From Pelotomaculum schinkii (GTDB taxonomy: Bacteria > Bacillota > Desulfotomaculia > Desulfotomaculales > Pelotomaculaceae), in contig NZ_QFGA01000004.1 of NCBI RefSeq assembly GCF_004369205.1, forward strand, positions 124,001 through 188,000: DNA of 64,000 bases, given 5' to 3'. Below, piece after piece: positions 4,065-32,475 of this stretch. Within the stretch, counting starts at the first letter, position 1, and each line of letters opens with the position of its first letter. A model generated the notes under the pieces. That model saw only the letters and a program-made list of their open reading frames with translations. It did not search any database and was not told where the DNA came from. Made by a program: the position numbers and the translations under genes.

Positions 4065-4214
4065 TGCTAGAAATAGGATAAGGAGCAAGTGAAAGGATTG
4101 TGGGTTTGCGGATAACTCCTACAGAGCTGGGAGTGTACACGATTATGTGTAAATGGGAATTCCTCTTTGAAATTGGTAAGCTATAAATGGCTCTTACCCG
4201 CCTGGAGGACAGCG

Positions 4215-4330
4215 ATAGGTAAGGGTCATCCTCGTCATTACCCGTTAGGACGCCCTTTTCCCCCGCCTCGCACCGTGCGTGAGACTTTCAACTCACACGG
4301 CGCTCCATCGTACAGTGGCACTTGTCAGGC
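4215..4330 (-). ncRNA. Group II intron RNA domains V/VI (3' end of split intron)
   Basis: Read on the minus strand, 4306-4267 gives a domain V hairpin: GGAGCGCCGTGTGAG, a GAAA-type loop region, then CTCACGCACGGTGCG. Domain VI follows with the CCTAAC branch region, and the intron should end near 4215 (CTTACCTATC). It belongs to the intron whose 5' half lies at 18421-20536. Confidence 0.75.
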
Positions 4331-19822: not shown

Positions 19823-20536
19823 CTCCTTTCGGAGATTTGCGCCAGACGGCGTTAGTCAGGTATGCGCAACGGCTTCCTGAACAGTTGAACTCCTTTCCTC
19901 GTAATCTGTACGACTATGCCCCTTGGCTCCGCGGGCGTTACCCCGGTTCATCGCTACTACGGGCTGATGCCCCCTGATTTTGAAGGCCATTTCCTGCCTT
20001 CGAGTTGCATCGAGTTCTATTCCCCTTCACTATCAGGGTTCCACTGTTCCCAGCGTCCCAGCCTTACATTTGCGACTTTAGCCCCCATCTCTAACCCGTC
20101 AGCCATCCCTTCGCCCACGGTTGGAGGACTCGGGACGCCGGACGTCAGAGCGACCGGCGCAGCCATCAAACCCTATATTTTGGTGGCCGCGACTGAACCC
20201 GCTTTCTGCGGCAAAGTGCCTTTCGGCACCTTGCATTTTACGAGCCGTACAGACGATGGTTCCTGATTGGTCAGCTTGGCCGCTTTGTGACCCCCGACTT
20301 ACTCGACTCCATGGAGATTGCTCTCTATAGGAGCCTTTCAGCCGCCTTTACCGAGCTTCATACCCCTGCGCAATAGCACGTAGGCGCATGTCGGAGTTTC
20401 AGGGCGAGGTTGCCAACCTTCAACCCGTGCAGGAACTTCCCCTGCCAATTCAGACGCAGAGTTCGGTTTATGTAAAATGCAAACCGCCTGGTTTTACTAC
20501 ACATTTCTGTGTAGGCTGTCCAGGAACAGTGCACAC
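19823..20536 (-). ncRNA. Group II intron RNA, 5' part (domains I-III and start of IV)
   Basis: On the minus strand, a GUGYG-type 5' splice site (GTGTGCACTG) lies at 20536, followed by about 700 non-coding, strongly structured bases before the reverse transcriptase start at 19822 (GGAGGT ribosome binding site at about 19830). Domain V/VI for the same intron is at 4215-4330. The full intron, without transposon X, would be about 2.8 kb. The 5' end position is from consensus only. Confidence 0.65.
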
Positions 20537-27815: not shown

Positions 27816-29147
27816 GTGTTGAAAGTTAGAAGGCGAAAGCTCAAGCGCAAGGCGCCTTTCATCATATGCTGCCTGTTGCTGGTGGCCCTGCTGGCAGCAG
27901 GGGGCTACGAGCTGTTCAAAAATGATATCCTTCCGCCTGTAATCGATGATCCGAACAGCCCGGATTTTAACAAGGGAAACAGGCTGAATGTCCTTCTTTT
28001 GGGCAATGACGCCCGCGGCGGCGAAAATATGGCCCGGTCCGACACCATCATCCTGGCCAGCGTGGATCCCAAAAGCAAGCAGATGTCCCTGTTGTCCATC
28101 CCGCGGGACACCAGGGTAAATATCCCCAGGCACGGTTGGGACAAAATCAACAGCGCCTCCGTGTATGGCGGTACCGATATGTCCATGAAGGTGGTTTCGG
28201 ACCTGCTGGGGATACCGGTCAAGTACTATGTCCAGGTCAATTTCAACGGCTTTAAGGATATCGTGGACGCGCTCGGCGGAGTCACGCTCGATGTCGAGCA
28301 GGATATGAACCACTATGACCCGGATGATGGCGGCATTTACTCGATTAACCTGAAAAAGGGCGTCCAGCGCCTGGATGGGGATAAGGCGCTGCAGTATGTT
28401 CGCTTCCGGGACTATGCCATGGGTGACATTGAGCGCACCGCGCACCAGCAGAAATTCCTGGTGGCCCTGGCCAAAGAGATGCTGCAGCCCAGTACCATTC
28501 TCAAGCTGCCGGCGCTGGTCCCGGAAATAAACAAGTATGTTAAAACCAACCTGAGCCTCGGCGATATGATGACCCTGGCCTCAGCCGGCAAAAAATTGGA
28601 AAGCGGTAGCATTGTGGCCCAGACATTGCCGGGGCGGCCTATAAATATTGACGGGGGAAGCTACTGGGGAGTAGATCCGGATGAAGCCAAGCAGATGGTG
28701 GCCAATCTTTTCAATGGGGAGACCGTAACCAACGTTGTCCTGACCACCCCGTTGAGCGGCCTGCCGGCGAGCGCCGGGACTTCCGGCCGGTCTGAACAGC
28801 CTGAGGATGAGGAAGCCTCACCGGCCACTGAGCAGGCATCTTCCACCTCCCCGCCGGACCAAAGCGAAGACAAGGAGACAACCCCCGCCAAGCCGGGGCA
28901 GGGGTCTAAAAACGGCTCCTCGGATACCTCTGCTTCAGACGACGGTGCGATTACCATCACGCCCGTTGACGAAGACGGGGAGGATGAGGAAGAAACTTCA
29001 GGCGAAACAGAGAGCAGCAGTGACCCCCGGACCGGCTCACAAACGGGCAAGACCGGTAAGAGCGGTGTTTCCCAGGGCGACAGCGCAGAGGGATATAACC
29101 CGGGCATCCCGGGAACAACTAAAACCAGCAGTTCAGGGCGAACTTAG
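27816..29147 (+). CDS. LytR-CpsA-Psr (LCP) family wall polymer ligase
   Basis: LCP proteins transfer lipid-linked polymers such as teichoic acids or capsules to peptidoglycan. The 443-residue protein has a cytoplasmic basic start, one membrane helix ('PFIICCLLLVALLAAGGYELF'), then the LCP domain (about residues 55-260): 'NVLLLGNDARGG', 'RSDTIILASVDPKSKQMSLL', 'SIPRDTRVNI', 'GVTLDVEQDM' and 'RTAHQQKFLVALAKEML', with the Arg/Asp residues that bind pyrophosphate. The C-terminus (about 315-443) is an unusually long Ser/Thr/Glu/Pro-rich tail, likely disordered in the wall. The start is a GTG after GGGGTG. Confidence 0.9.
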   Translation: MLKVRRRKLKRKAPFIICCLLLVALLAAGGYELFKNDILPPVIDDPNSPDFNKGNRLNVLLLGNDARGGENMARSDTIILASVDPKSKQMSLLSIPRDTRVNIPRHGWDKINSASVYGGTDMSMKVVSDLLGIPVKYYVQVNFNGFKDIVDALGGVTLDVEQDMNHYDPDDGGIYSINLKKGVQRLDGDKALQYVRFRDYAMGDIERTAHQQKFLVALAKEMLQPSTILKLPALVPEINKYVKTNLSLGDMMTLASAGKKLESGSIVAQTLPGRPINIDGGSYWGVDPDEAKQMVANLFNGETVTNVVLTTPLSGLPASAGTSGRSEQPEDEEASPATEQASSTSPPDQSEDKETTPAKPGQGSKNGSSDTSASDDGAITITPVDEDGEDEEETSGETESSSDPRTGSQTGKTGKSGVSQGDSAEGYNPGIPGTTKTSSSGRT

Positions 29148-29214
29148 TCAAGTTATATGTGTAAATAGTTATTGGGAAAAATGGTTATGTATGTAAAATA
29201 AGCTTAATATGTTA

Positions 29215-29448
29215 TTGACAATCTTGTTTTTTTAATGATATATTAATCCTATCAACAAGGATGTCTTAGAATAGTCAGGCGGTTGGGGTGACACTCATCA
29301 GGTTGACGGTTATGGCTCTACCTGTAACCTTTAGGCTTTGTGCCGGAGAACCTGACATTGCCCAAGAGGCAGTCCTATGGAAGGATAGAGTCGCTAAGTA
29401 GCGCCCCCTAAGACACGACATGCAGACAGTAATGTCTGCTTTTTCTTT
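29215..29448 (+). promoter_or_regulatory. Promoter and structured leader ahead of a 46-codon ORF
   Basis: TTGACA (29215-29220), 18-base spacer and TATATT (29239-29244) predict a start near 29250. The following 170 bases fold into a closed multibranch: TGTCTTAG (29262-29269) pairs with CTAAGACA (29408-29415). Inside, CAGGTT/AACCTG encloses two hairpins (GGTTA..TAACC and GGC..GCC), and GCC..GGC, TCCT..AGGA and CGCT..AGCG hairpins follow. Then GCAGACAGTAATGTCTGC plus TTTTTCTTTT (29422-29449) forms an intrinsic terminator. This layout is riboswitch-like. I do not recognise the class. Confidence 0.5.
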
Positions 29449-29560
29449 TGATGTTAAAAAAAAGAGGCCAAGAGATAGATTTTGGTTAGAGCAGATCATT
29501 TCCATTATTGATGAAGAGATAGGGTTGGCGTTTGAAGAAGCTGCAACAACAAAAAGATGA
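29420..29560 (+). CDS. Small ORF, 46 codons, after the structured leader
   Basis: The frame from ATG 29420 (or the ATG at 29432 inside the terminator hairpin) encodes a 46-residue peptide: 'MQTVMSAFSF', then 'DVKKKRPRDRFWLEQIISII' and an acidic-amphipathic end 'DEEIGLAFEEAATTKR'. The composition is protein-like, with a predicted amphipathic helix. No clear ribosome binding site precedes either ATG, which lowers confidence. Read-through of the terminator would be needed for translation. I do not recognise the sequence; a fragment of a lost gene is the main alternative. Confidence 0.4.
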   Translation: MQTVMSAFSFDVKKKRPRDRFWLEQIISIIDEEIGLAFEEAATTKR

Positions 29561-29583
29561 TTAAAATAAGCCGCCATGGTGTA

Positions 29584-29650
29584 ATGATATGCTACCCCCA
29601 GATAGGACAGTGAAAAAGAAAAACTGACCTATCTGGGGGTAGCATATCAT
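29584..29650. repeat. Perfect 23-bp inverted repeat with 21-base loop
   Basis: The left arm 29584-29606 (ATGATATGCTACCCCCAGAT...) is exactly complementary to 29628-29650, and CAGT/ACTG extends the stem inward after one mismatch. It lies between the small ORF and the convergent ligase gene. It may be a two-way terminator, or two ends of a collapsed insertion sequence, or a miniature element. No T tract follows on either side. Confidence 0.7.
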
Positions 29651-29678
29651 AACGACCGGTAGCTTTTTGGTTTTGTTT

Positions 29679-31205
29679 CTAGTCTACCGGTGGGGTCTCT
29701 TGTCCTTCCAGGTAGGGCAGCGCGGCGGTCATGCCTAAAAGCAGCCAGAAGTAGACGGTCATCATCGGGACTTCGAAGATGTTTTCCACGCCGTTGTGCA
29801 GGAGGACGCCCAATAGACCGGATATCAAGCCCATGGCAAGCCCCTTCAGGTAGGTATCGGTGAGCCTCCGGTAGGAGTTCAGGGCGCACCGGATACCGCA
29901 CAGAAGAAGCCAGAGCAGGGCGGCAACGCCCAGTAAGCCTGATTCGGCGGCTGTCTTGAGGTAAAAGTTGTCCACGTAATTACTGCTGGGAATATGGCGG
30001 GCCGCGACCGCTCCGCCGAAACGGCCGAACCCCTCGCCAACCAGCGGGTGGTTTTGCAGCTTGTTCAGAGCCATGTTCCAGCGGGCTACACGTCCCGCCC
30101 GGGCGCTGCTGAGCAGGTAAGCGGGGGACAGCATGTAGCCGATGCGGGAGGCGATACCCGGAATAACCTTTGGCGCCGTGTAGGCGGCCGCCGCCAGGGC
30201 CAGCAGGATGCGCCAGTTGTAAAGCAGACCGTAAATAGCCAGGGCGCCGGCCATGGCCAGCCAGGCCCCGCGGGAATAGGTAAAGAAGAGACTCAGCACC
30301 ATCGGCGCCAGACAAAGGGCGTAAAAATACTTCAGCAACCTGCCTCTGGCGGACAGGACCTGGCTCACCGTGATGGGGATGACCAGCACCAGGAAGCTGC
30401 CCAGGACATTGGGGCTGCCGACGATGGAAAAGACCCTGGTCCTGACGCTTTCCGTGCTGTCCAGCCAGGTGGACGGTATTTCAACCCCGATGATGTACTG
30501 GTAGACACCGTGCAGCGCCACCAGCGTGCCAAGCAGTACCAGCCAGTTCACCAGCGCCCGGACCTGCCTCTTGTTAAGCAGGAGGTTGCTGGCCACGAAG
30601 AACCAGAACAGGTACTCCACATAAACCCGCACTCCCTCCACGGCTATTTCGAGCTGTGGTGAGCGGACCAGGAAAAGGAAGGCCGCTGCCGCCAGGTAAA
30701 GCAGTATTGGTAAATCCAGCGGGGTAAGACGGTAGGTCAGCTTTCCCCGCAAGGCCATCTGCACAGGCCAGGCCAGGAAAGTGGCGACGAGCAGCAGCTC
30801 ATCCCAGTAGCTTGCCAAAGAGGAGGTAGTTCCCAGTGACTCGCGCAATGCGTAGTCAATCAGGATATATGAAAAGACCAGCCACAGCAGTGTCTCCACA
30901 CGGATACCGGCGAGGCTGCGCAAGGCCAGGCTGTTATTGAACACGGGCGGGAATTTGATTTTAGAAAACAGGCTTTCGGCCAGACCGCGCCTGATTGCTG
31001 CGCCGGTTATCTCAAGCGGGCGCCCTAAAGTCCCGGCAGCGGCAGTTGTTATCCGTCCCAGCAGGGAAAGGCGTACCGCTTCCTGACGGCTATAGGCTGG
31101 AGTGCCGTAAGTCCACCCGTAAACCGCGCTTTGCTGCCATGCCCGCATTGTCCCCGCAGTCAAGCGGCCAACCAAACTTTCCTGCCATACCTGTGCTTTG
31201 GCCAC
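29679..31205 (-). CDS. O-antigen ligase-family (WaaL/RfaL-type) membrane protein
   Basis: About 508 residues starting at the GTG at 31205, chosen because AAGGAGG lies six bases upstream; the longer open frame to 31454 is not family-like. After a cytoplasmic region of about 100 residues there are 10-12 hydrophobic segments. The Wzy/ligase signature loop is large and contains 'GEGFGRFGGAV' and 'NYVDNFYLKTAAESGLLGV', matching the extracytoplasmic loop with conserved Arg/His-type residues of Wzy_C proteins. In Gram-positives such proteins polymerise or transfer lipid-linked repeat units. It is convergent with the LCP operon and divergent from the glycosyltransferase genes. Confidence 0.85.
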   Translation of the reverse strand: MAKAQVWQESLVGRLTAGTMRAWQQSAVYGWTYGTPAYSRQEAVRLSLLGRITTAAAGTLGRPLEITGAAIRRGLAESLFSKIKFPPVFNNSLALRSLAGIRVETLLWLVFSYILIDYALRESLGTTSSLASYWDELLLVATFLAWPVQMALRGKLTYRLTPLDLPILLYLAAAAFLFLVRSPQLEIAVEGVRVYVEYLFWFFVASNLLLNKRQVRALVNWLVLLGTLVALHGVYQYIIGVEIPSTWLDSTESVRTRVFSIVGSPNVLGSFLVLVIPITVSQVLSARGRLLKYFYALCLAPMVLSLFFTYSRGAWLAMAGALAIYGLLYNWRILLALAAAAYTAPKVIPGIASRIGYMLSPAYLLSSARAGRVARWNMALNKLQNHPLVGEGFGRFGGAVAARHIPSSNYVDNFYLKTAAESGLLGVAALLWLLLCGIRCALNSYRRLTDTYLKGLAMGLISGLLGVLLHNGVENIFEVPMMTVYFWLLLGMTAALPYLEGQETPPVD

Positions 31206-31344
31206 AAGGATCCTCCTTAAACAATAATCCTTATTATTATAAAGCAAAGCACCGGGGAAATCCAGAAGGATTGGAGGCAGGGTTCTTGTGGAAAGGCCTG
31301 TTAATTGATAAAATGGGAAAAGCAAAGTAAGGGAGCTATTTTTT

Positions 31345-32475
31345 GTGGGTTTGATCAAAGTTGTCCATATTATCGGCGGCGGTGAATTCGGCGGCGCCGA
31401 AAGACATATTATTAATCTGGCCGGGGCTCTTAATCCGCAAATGGTGGAGGTCACCGTTTGCTGTCTCTTTAGCGATCCCTTTGTAGGTATTGCCGCTCAA
31501 GCCGGGCTAAATGCCTTTGACGTGACCATGAGAAACAGGACTGATTTGAGTGTGGTGGGCAAGCTGGCTTCTATCATCCGCAACAATAATTTTGATATCG
31601 TCCATACCCATGGTGTTAGAGCCAACCTGCTGGGCAGGCTGGCCGCCCGCCAGGCCAATAGAAAGCCGGTGGTGACGACCGTGCACAGCCTTCTGGAAAG
31701 GGATTACCCGGGTTTCTTCAGGCGGCAGGTCAACAGCATTACCGAACGGGCCACGCGAGGCTGGACCGACCAATTTATCGCGGTTTCCCAGGGACTCAAG
31801 GCAAAGCTGGTTGCCGGCGGCGTTCCGGCCGACCGGGTTACGGTGATCTATAACGGCATTGTCATAGAGGACTTCAGTCCTTCCTCAGAAACAGCCGGCG
31901 CGAGGACTATGCTCGGCTATGGTCCTGCCGTGCCGCTGGTGGGTATCGTGGCCCGCCTGCATCCTGTCAAGGGACATCAATATTTTTTAGAGGCGGCCAG
32001 GATTGTCCTGGAGCAGCATCCGGAGGTCCGCTTTGTAGTGGTGGGCGAGGGGCCCCAGCGGCCGGCCCTTGAGGAGATGGCCGGTCAACTTGGCATAGCA
32101 GGCCAGGTTGCGTTTACCGGATTTGTATCTGAGGTGCGTTCTGTGATGGCGGATTTGGACCTGCTGGTGATATCGTCGCTCTGGGAGGGCTTTGGTCTGA
32201 CAGCGGTTGAGGCTATGGCGCTGGGCATACCCGTAGTTTCAACCGAAGTCGGCGGGCTGCCTGAGGTGGTATTGCACGGGGAAACCGGCTTGTTGGCGCC
32301 GCCTGCCAATTCGGCGGCCCTGGCCAAAAATATCATCTGGATGCTGGAACATCCGCAGGCAGCCGCGGAAATGGCTAAAAAAGCAAGTCAAGTCGTTGGC
32401 GAAAAATTCACAGCCCAGGTCATGGCACGCCGTACGGAGGAGTTATATCGCCGGGTAGCGGGGTGTGAAAATTGA
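31345..32475 (+). CDS. GT4-family glycosyltransferase
   Basis: 376 residues, GT-B fold. The N-terminal half has 'VVHIIGGGEFGGAERHIINLAGAL' (acceptor side). The linker to the C-terminal half reads 'VIYNGIVIEDFSP'. The donor-binding part has 'PLVGIVARLHPVKGHQYFLEA', 'VVVGEGPQRPALEEMA', 'VAFTGFVSEVRSVMADLDLLVISSLWEGFGLTAVEAMALGIPVVSTEVGGLPEVV'. The E-x7-E motif of retaining GT4 enzymes is present. It likely builds the wall polysaccharide or teichuronic-type polymer. The GTG start at 31345 follows AAGGGAG. It overlaps the next glycosyltransferase by four bases. Confidence 0.9.
   Translation: MGLIKVVHIIGGGEFGGAERHIINLAGALNPQMVEVTVCCLFSDPFVGIAAQAGLNAFDVTMRNRTDLSVVGKLASIIRNNNFDIVHTHGVRANLLGRLAARQANRKPVVTTVHSLLERDYPGFFRRQVNSITERATRGWTDQFIAVSQGLKAKLVAGGVPADRVTVIYNGIVIEDFSPSSETAGARTMLGYGPAVPLVGIVARLHPVKGHQYFLEAARIVLEQHPEVRFVVVGEGPQRPALEEMAGQLGIAGQVAFTGFVSEVRSVMADLDLLVISSLWEGFGLTAVEAMALGIPVVSTEVGGLPEVVLHGETGLLAPPANSAALAKNIIWMLEHPQAAAEMAKKASQVVGEKFTAQVMARRTEELYRRVAGCEN

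Follow-up and report, generated by a model that had tools for sequence, protein, structure and literature searches.

The window analysed here, 64,000 nt of Pelotomaculum schinkii DNA, contains, between two cell-envelope genes, a unit made up of a promoter-like sequence, a structured RNA and a terminator (29215–29449; Table 1). A folded RNA is most likely made from this region, and the preferred explanation, with a probability put at about 0.6, is a stand-alone gene for a structured RNA, a solo copy of an RNA-terminator-protein cassette. Transcription would start at a sigma-A-type promoter belonging to the unit and stop at the unit's intrinsic terminator; the resulting RNA of about 190–200 nt would itself be the product and would probably act in trans. 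Its shape would be closed by P1, with P2 beside P1 on the 3′ strand, P3/P4, P6 and P7 forming the multibranch and a pseudoknot possible. Elsewhere the cassette would run promoter, RNA, terminator and a protein of 102–110 aa, and partial read-through of the terminator would yield little protein and much RNA, for which reason the probable role of the RNA is to bind, restrain or serve the protein. In the window the RNA unit would stand alone, and the 46-codon frame behind it would be accidental.

The RNA is taken as the product because the promoter-like sequence, the RNA and the terminator stay together as a unit, because the terminator is near-invariant and no antiterminator partner beats shuffled sequences, and because the copy in the window occurs in the absence of the protein. 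Against this, three of the four known copies are in leader position, with no room for another promoter before the conserved open reading frame (ORF) that follows, and a cis-acting attenuator would have the same appearance. Tentatively, the cassette could also be a new mobile two-part system, composed of a large structured and possibly pseudoknotted RNA, a terminator that sets the ratio of the products and a protein of a new family, in which case the window would hold a protective or domesticated solo RNA remnant.

Table 1. Features of the RNA unit and its surroundings, in window coordinates
Feature	Position	Strand	Basis or remark
LytR-CpsA-Psr (LCP) gene	27816–29147	+	upstream neighbour of RNA unit
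Unit absent from G013	29150–29461 (approximate ends)	+	alignment with G013 LCP-Wzy intergene
Promoter-like TTGACA-18-TATATT	29215–29244	+	11 of 12 consensus positions
Structured RNA core, 154 nt	29262–29415	+	G009 and G015 relatives; covariation
P1 arms	29262–29269 TGTCTTAG / 29408–29415 CTAAGACA	+	pairing in all four copies
Possible pseudoknot	29278–29282 GGCGG / 29391–29395 TCGCT	+	crosses P2; weak
P2 arms	29285–29290 GGGGTG / 29402–29407 CGCCCC	+	3′ arm directly 5′ of P1 3′ arm
P3 arms	29298–29304 TCAGGTT / 29349–29355 AACCTGA	+	cross-copy pairing
P4 hairpin GGTTATGG..CTGTAACC	29308–29329	+	loop CTCTAC; CGCTAT in relatives
P6 hairpin TTGCC/GGCAG	29358–29372	+	helix comparison across copies
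P7 hairpin TCCT/AGGA	29373–29385	+	lowest-energy fold; register varies among copies
46-codon ORF, judged non-gene	29420–29560	+	no visible Shine-Dalgarno, no family match, broken frame in G013
Predicted intrinsic terminator GCAGACAGTAATGTCTGC + TTTTTCTTTT	29422–29449	+	hairpin 29422–29439, T-rich tail
O-antigen-ligase-like gene	29679–31454	-	converging, downstream of RNA unit

Relatives of the RNA and database searches

The window's own genome contains a single copy of the RNA. A BLAST search of 25 genomes of the family revealed a relative in genome G009 (66% identity over 185 nt, E 0.003), and the G009 copy, used as query, identified two copies in genome G015, a near copy that shares 98% identity with the G009 one and a diverged copy. 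Both genomes are of the same family as the window genome. A terminator-free covariance model, R2, placed the total at four copies in 3 of the 113 genomes of the order; the search set for the class also comprised 113 genomes and returned the same copies. The first-pass annotation had named a lack of homologous RNA as an argument against its own proposal. The covariance-model search that it suggested was run, and homologous RNA exists in G009 and G015.

Neither of two covariance models found copies beyond those known from BLAST. R2 gave a weak partial match in G006 (E 0.09, L061), judged by eye to be chance, and across 398 phylum-sampled genomes recovered only the copy of the window genome. The model that includes the terminator, R1, marked ten extra places in the order, six of which (L056, L057, L058, L061, L062 and L063) were dismissed by eye as bare terminators or chance. 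Eight extra places in the phylum sample scored 23–29 bits, with spans of 49–124 nt compared with the 191 positions of the model. The model runs scored 6–26 first-look candidates per genome with the filters tightened, and divergent copies may therefore have escaped them. Short, weak BLAST matches beyond the four copies (E about 0.01–1) were taken as chance.

The first-pass annotation knew of no described class with this layout, and in Rfam no family rises above chance at the RNA, in the window or in its relatives. A search of the whole window produced no gathering-level match at the RNA, and the relatives' copies in L048 and L002 had no match at E up to 5. With the limit raised to E 10, only two chance-level matches touched the unit, namely ctRNA_p42d, which overlaps the terminator (15.1 bits against a cut-off of 50, E 3), and sR55, which lies on the opposite strand (11.8 bits against a cut-off of 35, E 6.4); both were rejected. 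Most of the chance-level Rfam matches around the locus sit on a nearby long hairpin. Rfam matches to group II introns were seen in the window at 418–494, 4209–4305 and 20283–20466; as these are situated away from the RNA, a retron or group II intron RNA was dropped from consideration.

Pattern scans returned one stretch from the genome_contigs collection, which is the G009 record, and 0, 0 and 1 stretches from viral_contigs, the last inside a long ORF and lacking a model match. A plasmid DNA search for the locus gave no match, and the only match in phage DNA, 30 bases in the promoter region, was taken as chance. None of the titles listed by the literature searches describes this RNA; in the main text of PMC11109978, a word search showed that Pelotomaculum, Peptococcaceae and Desulfotomaculum are not named.

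A long near-perfect inverted repeat, with arms of about 26 bp by eye, lies at 29580–29656. At that place G013, a genome of the same genus, carries only a simple terminator, AAGCTGCC..GGCGGCTTTTT, and a second copy of the repeat was not found in the window's own genome.

The consensus promoter of the first-pass annotation was recovered as a prediction from sequence, and 1% of 2000 Markov resamples drawn from the 111 bases that precede P1 had a best score as high. The best matches in the other copies are TTGACT-17-TAATAT (two copies) and TTGACA-17-TACATT, and the distance from the second hexamer to P1 is 17, 7, 7 and 19 nt across the four copies. Resamples reached the match in 31% of cases for G009, 43% for the first G015 copy and 8% for the second. 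On these figures the matches prove little alone, and two of the three cassette promoter matches, taken by themselves, are at chance level.

Fold, covariation and the question of a leader

The closed multibranched RNA that had been proposed was confirmed as a fold, with a core of about 154 nt and the closing stem TGTCTTAG/CTAAGACA. Its energy does not stand out (z −1.15): of 200 shuffled sequences, 28 folded at least equally well. The case for structure is therefore comparative, in that the relatives carry covarying helices. P1, P2, P3 and P4 are fully paired in all four copies despite changed letters, as expected of compensatory change: P1 reads GGCCTTTGT/ACAAGGGCC in the second G015 copy, as against TGTCTTAG/CTAAGACA in the window, and P2 reads GGGATTC/GAATCTC in G009, as against GGGGTG/CGCCCC. 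Hairpins P6 and P7 are possible in every copy, with a shifting register. The pseudoknot candidate has five standard pairs in each of the four copies (AGCGG/YCGCU; GGCGG/UCGCU in the window); two of the five pairs vary, and since they do so on one side only, the support that they lend is weak.

Covariation was counted in two ways. A table compiled by hand, covering 50 helix positions in three distinct copies (P1–P4, P6, P7, the pseudoknot and the terminator), allowed 148 comparisons, which comprised 35 both-sided changes with pairing kept, 17 one-sided changes, 92 unchanged pairs and 4 broken ones; this count is biased towards helices, because the helices were chosen in building the table. In a model-fitted alignment, in which the second G015 copy has its P1 shifted by one base, 90.0% of 130 cells were paired, compared with 38–51% when partners were slid. 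Both-sided change was observed in 8 of 33 pairs, a figure matched in 6 of 500 shuffles; one of the five covariation measures, 'further pair types', was not above shuffles (331 of 500). As two of the four copies are 98% alike, the covariation comes from three distinct sequences.

The predicted terminator, a hairpin with a T-rich tail, is present as the first-pass annotation had described it. It is near-identical across the copies, and the outer six stem pairs are the same in all four. This bears on the main rival reading, in which the RNA is a cis-acting leader that senses a ligand, a protein or a tRNA and sets read-through into the 102–110 aa gene, with the window holding a stranded leader. 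Such a reading draws on the direct placement of RNA and terminator before a conserved ORF in three of the four copies, with an RBS-like sequence between them, and on the likeness of a multibranched, possibly pseudoknotted fold to aptamers. However, the best upstream partner for the 5′ arm of the terminator was no better than in shuffled sequences (261, 175, 173 and 201 of 300 mononucleotide shuffles reached it in the four copies), and its position differs among the three distinct copies. No conserved riboswitch expression platform, sought in its antiterminator form, was found in any of the four copies. Near-invariant terminator arms and the lack of an antiterminator do not suit a switch, and the switch of read-through that had been claimed is accordingly not upheld. 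In addition, the cassette protein is not a recognizable enzyme or transporter, and the window copy retains the whole unit without the gene. A leader role is possible in the three cassette copies, because RNA and terminator there lead into a protein gene. As an account of the feature as a whole, the leader is considered unlikely.

Protein cassettes and the 46-codon frame

In the three other copies, the RNA and terminator precede an ORF of 102, 107 or 110 aa, which starts within about 20 bases of the T run of the terminator, not inside the terminator; the RBS-like sequence in the interval was recognized by eye. The downstream ORF of the relatives thus differs from the one claimed for the window, both in its length and in beginning after the terminator. 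The protein occurs at three places in 2 of the 113 genomes of the order and was not found in the window's genome, where the RNA structure is intact. None of the three proteins matched Pfam or NCBIfam at a curated cut-off; for two of the three, the best E value against PHROGs was 0.013, and PADLOC gave no match. A fold search with predicted models of the 110-aa protein (one of five with a pLDDT of 85, the others 58–64) revealed nothing clear (best E 1.0, best Z 4.5). Plasmids, phages and viral contigs yielded no match to the protein, the alignment used in the first viral scan being led by a doubtful 46-aa ORF.

The diverged cassette protein is 50% identical to that of G009. Between the near copies, dN is 0.015 compared with a dS of 0.135 (84 codons), and between G009 and the diverged copy dN is 0.41 with dS saturated; judged by these substitutions, the protein is under purifying selection. 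G009 and G015 represent different genera, and 839 aligned bases around the cassette are 93% identical between them, which suggests a recent transfer. In the G015 near copy (L048 1421–1729), the C-terminus of the protein has been replaced beside a TTCGTACGAA repeat, and the RNA is intact.

Several features adjoin the cassettes. In G009 the neighbours include genes resembling S24 peptidases and HTH proteins, whose scores narrowly miss the Pfam cut-offs. Genes with a common N-terminus, VKNYFRHI, lie upstream of the cassette at L049 9134–9865 in G009, where the gene is weakly S24-peptidase-like, and at L048 474–983 in G015; matches to this type of gene were found in just these 2 of the 25 family genomes, at two places in each. 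The S24-like neighbour had no plasmid match. Many distinct short palindromes (GACAAAATGTC, GTGCACCCGGTGCAC, GTCGCCCGGCGAC and TTCGTACGAA) were seen by eye beside the cassettes, at L048 1680–2750 in G015 and L002 700–1060 in G009.

It was also considered that the 102–110 aa protein might be a toxin held in check by the RNA, as in type III toxin-antitoxin systems, and that the window might carry an orphan antitoxin, either protective or a remnant. The apparent movement of the cassette across genera and the weakly matching HTH and S24-peptidase genes that flank the G009 copy are in favour of this, and an antitoxin can outlive its toxin. The order of parts also fits, as it matches that of the type III loci in PMC8860590: a promoter, the RNA, a short terminator hairpin and then the toxin ORF. 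In the three cassette copies, a putative promoter is situated upstream and a predicted terminator between the RNA and the gene. However, the RNA is without tandem repeats: Tandem Repeats Finder reported no row in window 29150–29700 and, in L048 1–4500, three rows, none in either RNA copy. Nor does the protein match a toxin or defence family in the libraries searched or show a clear fold, the check for ToxN/CptN/TenpN-type toxins giving a best E of 0.013 in the family search and the values cited above in the fold search. For want of tandem repeats, and of a toxin match as well, the cassette was not filed as type III, and a toxin-antitoxin pair is regarded as quite improbable.

The 46-codon frame is very probably not a gene. 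The ATG noted within the terminator hairpin is real, in that it begins at 29420, the terminator stem starts with its G, and 46 codons follow in an open frame that extends to 29560; its standing as a switch-controlled gene was lost on comparison with G013, the one genome found to share the flank of the ORF. There the RNA unit is absent, the promoter, RNA and terminator all being missing after the LCP gene, and the counterpart of the window from 29463 onward follows the LCP stop codon almost at once. Over 116 bases this counterpart has four single-base gaps, three of them within the ORF, so the frame, whose conservation the first-pass annotation had made a test of its claim, is not kept in this genome of the same genus. 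About two thirds of the ORF is flanking DNA. As G013 has the flank alone, with gaps, the ORF joins the terminator to an independent flank. No Shine-Dalgarno sequence was visible by eye upstream of the ORF (TAAGACACGACATG), searches of its product against Pfam, NCBIfam, PHROGs and PADLOC with an E limit of 1 found nothing, and tblastn against plasmids gave no match. When the neighbouring LCP gene was sought in G012, another genome of the genus (77% complete), nothing matched. Three different frames of G013 contain residues similar to KRPRDRFWLEQ, IIDEE and ATTK, and the flank may for this reason be the remnant of an old gene.

A riboswitch whose terminator hairpin also carries the start of a 46-codon gene, as favoured by the overlap of the ATG with the stem, the open frame and these G013 residues, is highly improbable given the missing Shine-Dalgarno, the three gaps in frame, the flank without an RNA unit in G013 and the start of the ORF after the terminator in the other three copies. 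An open frame that runs from a terminator into unrelated flanking DNA can thus mimic a switch-controlled gene.

Comparison with known systems

The stand-alone RNA gene preferred here resembles the raiA motif RNA (ModT, RF03072), for which PMC11706538 describes a sigma-A promoter, a predicted terminator and pseudoknots in Bacillota: both would be stand-alone structured RNAs of similar length, with promoter and terminator, in that phylum. They differ in that RF03072 is missing from the Rfam matches of every copy, and in range: raiA is reported in PMC11706538 from more than 2,500 species, as compared with 3 of 113 genomes of the order here.

Terminator-controlled riboswitches, such as the HMP-PP (thiS) riboswitch with its terminator-embedded aptamer described in PMC6478431, share with this unit a structured RNA upstream of a terminator, followed in three of the present copies by an ORF. 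They differ in that, for the RNA described here, no antiterminator was found, the terminator is near-invariant, no recognizable metabolic gene lies directly downstream and a solo copy exists without a gene.

The ToxIN system, as presented in PMC8860590, is alike in having a promoter, a structured RNA, a short terminator and a small gene apparently reached only by read-through. Here, in contrast, the RNA is a single multibranched molecule of about 154 nt or more, not a set of tandem repeats, the cassette protein has no toxin-family match in the libraries searched, and the window copy is without the protein. These data add a structured RNA that is absent from the searched copy of Rfam, together with a link, open to testing, to a small protein that fits no family in the libraries searched. 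If RNA and protein are a pair, they would have a layout like that of the repeat-based type III loci, with an RNA unlike theirs.
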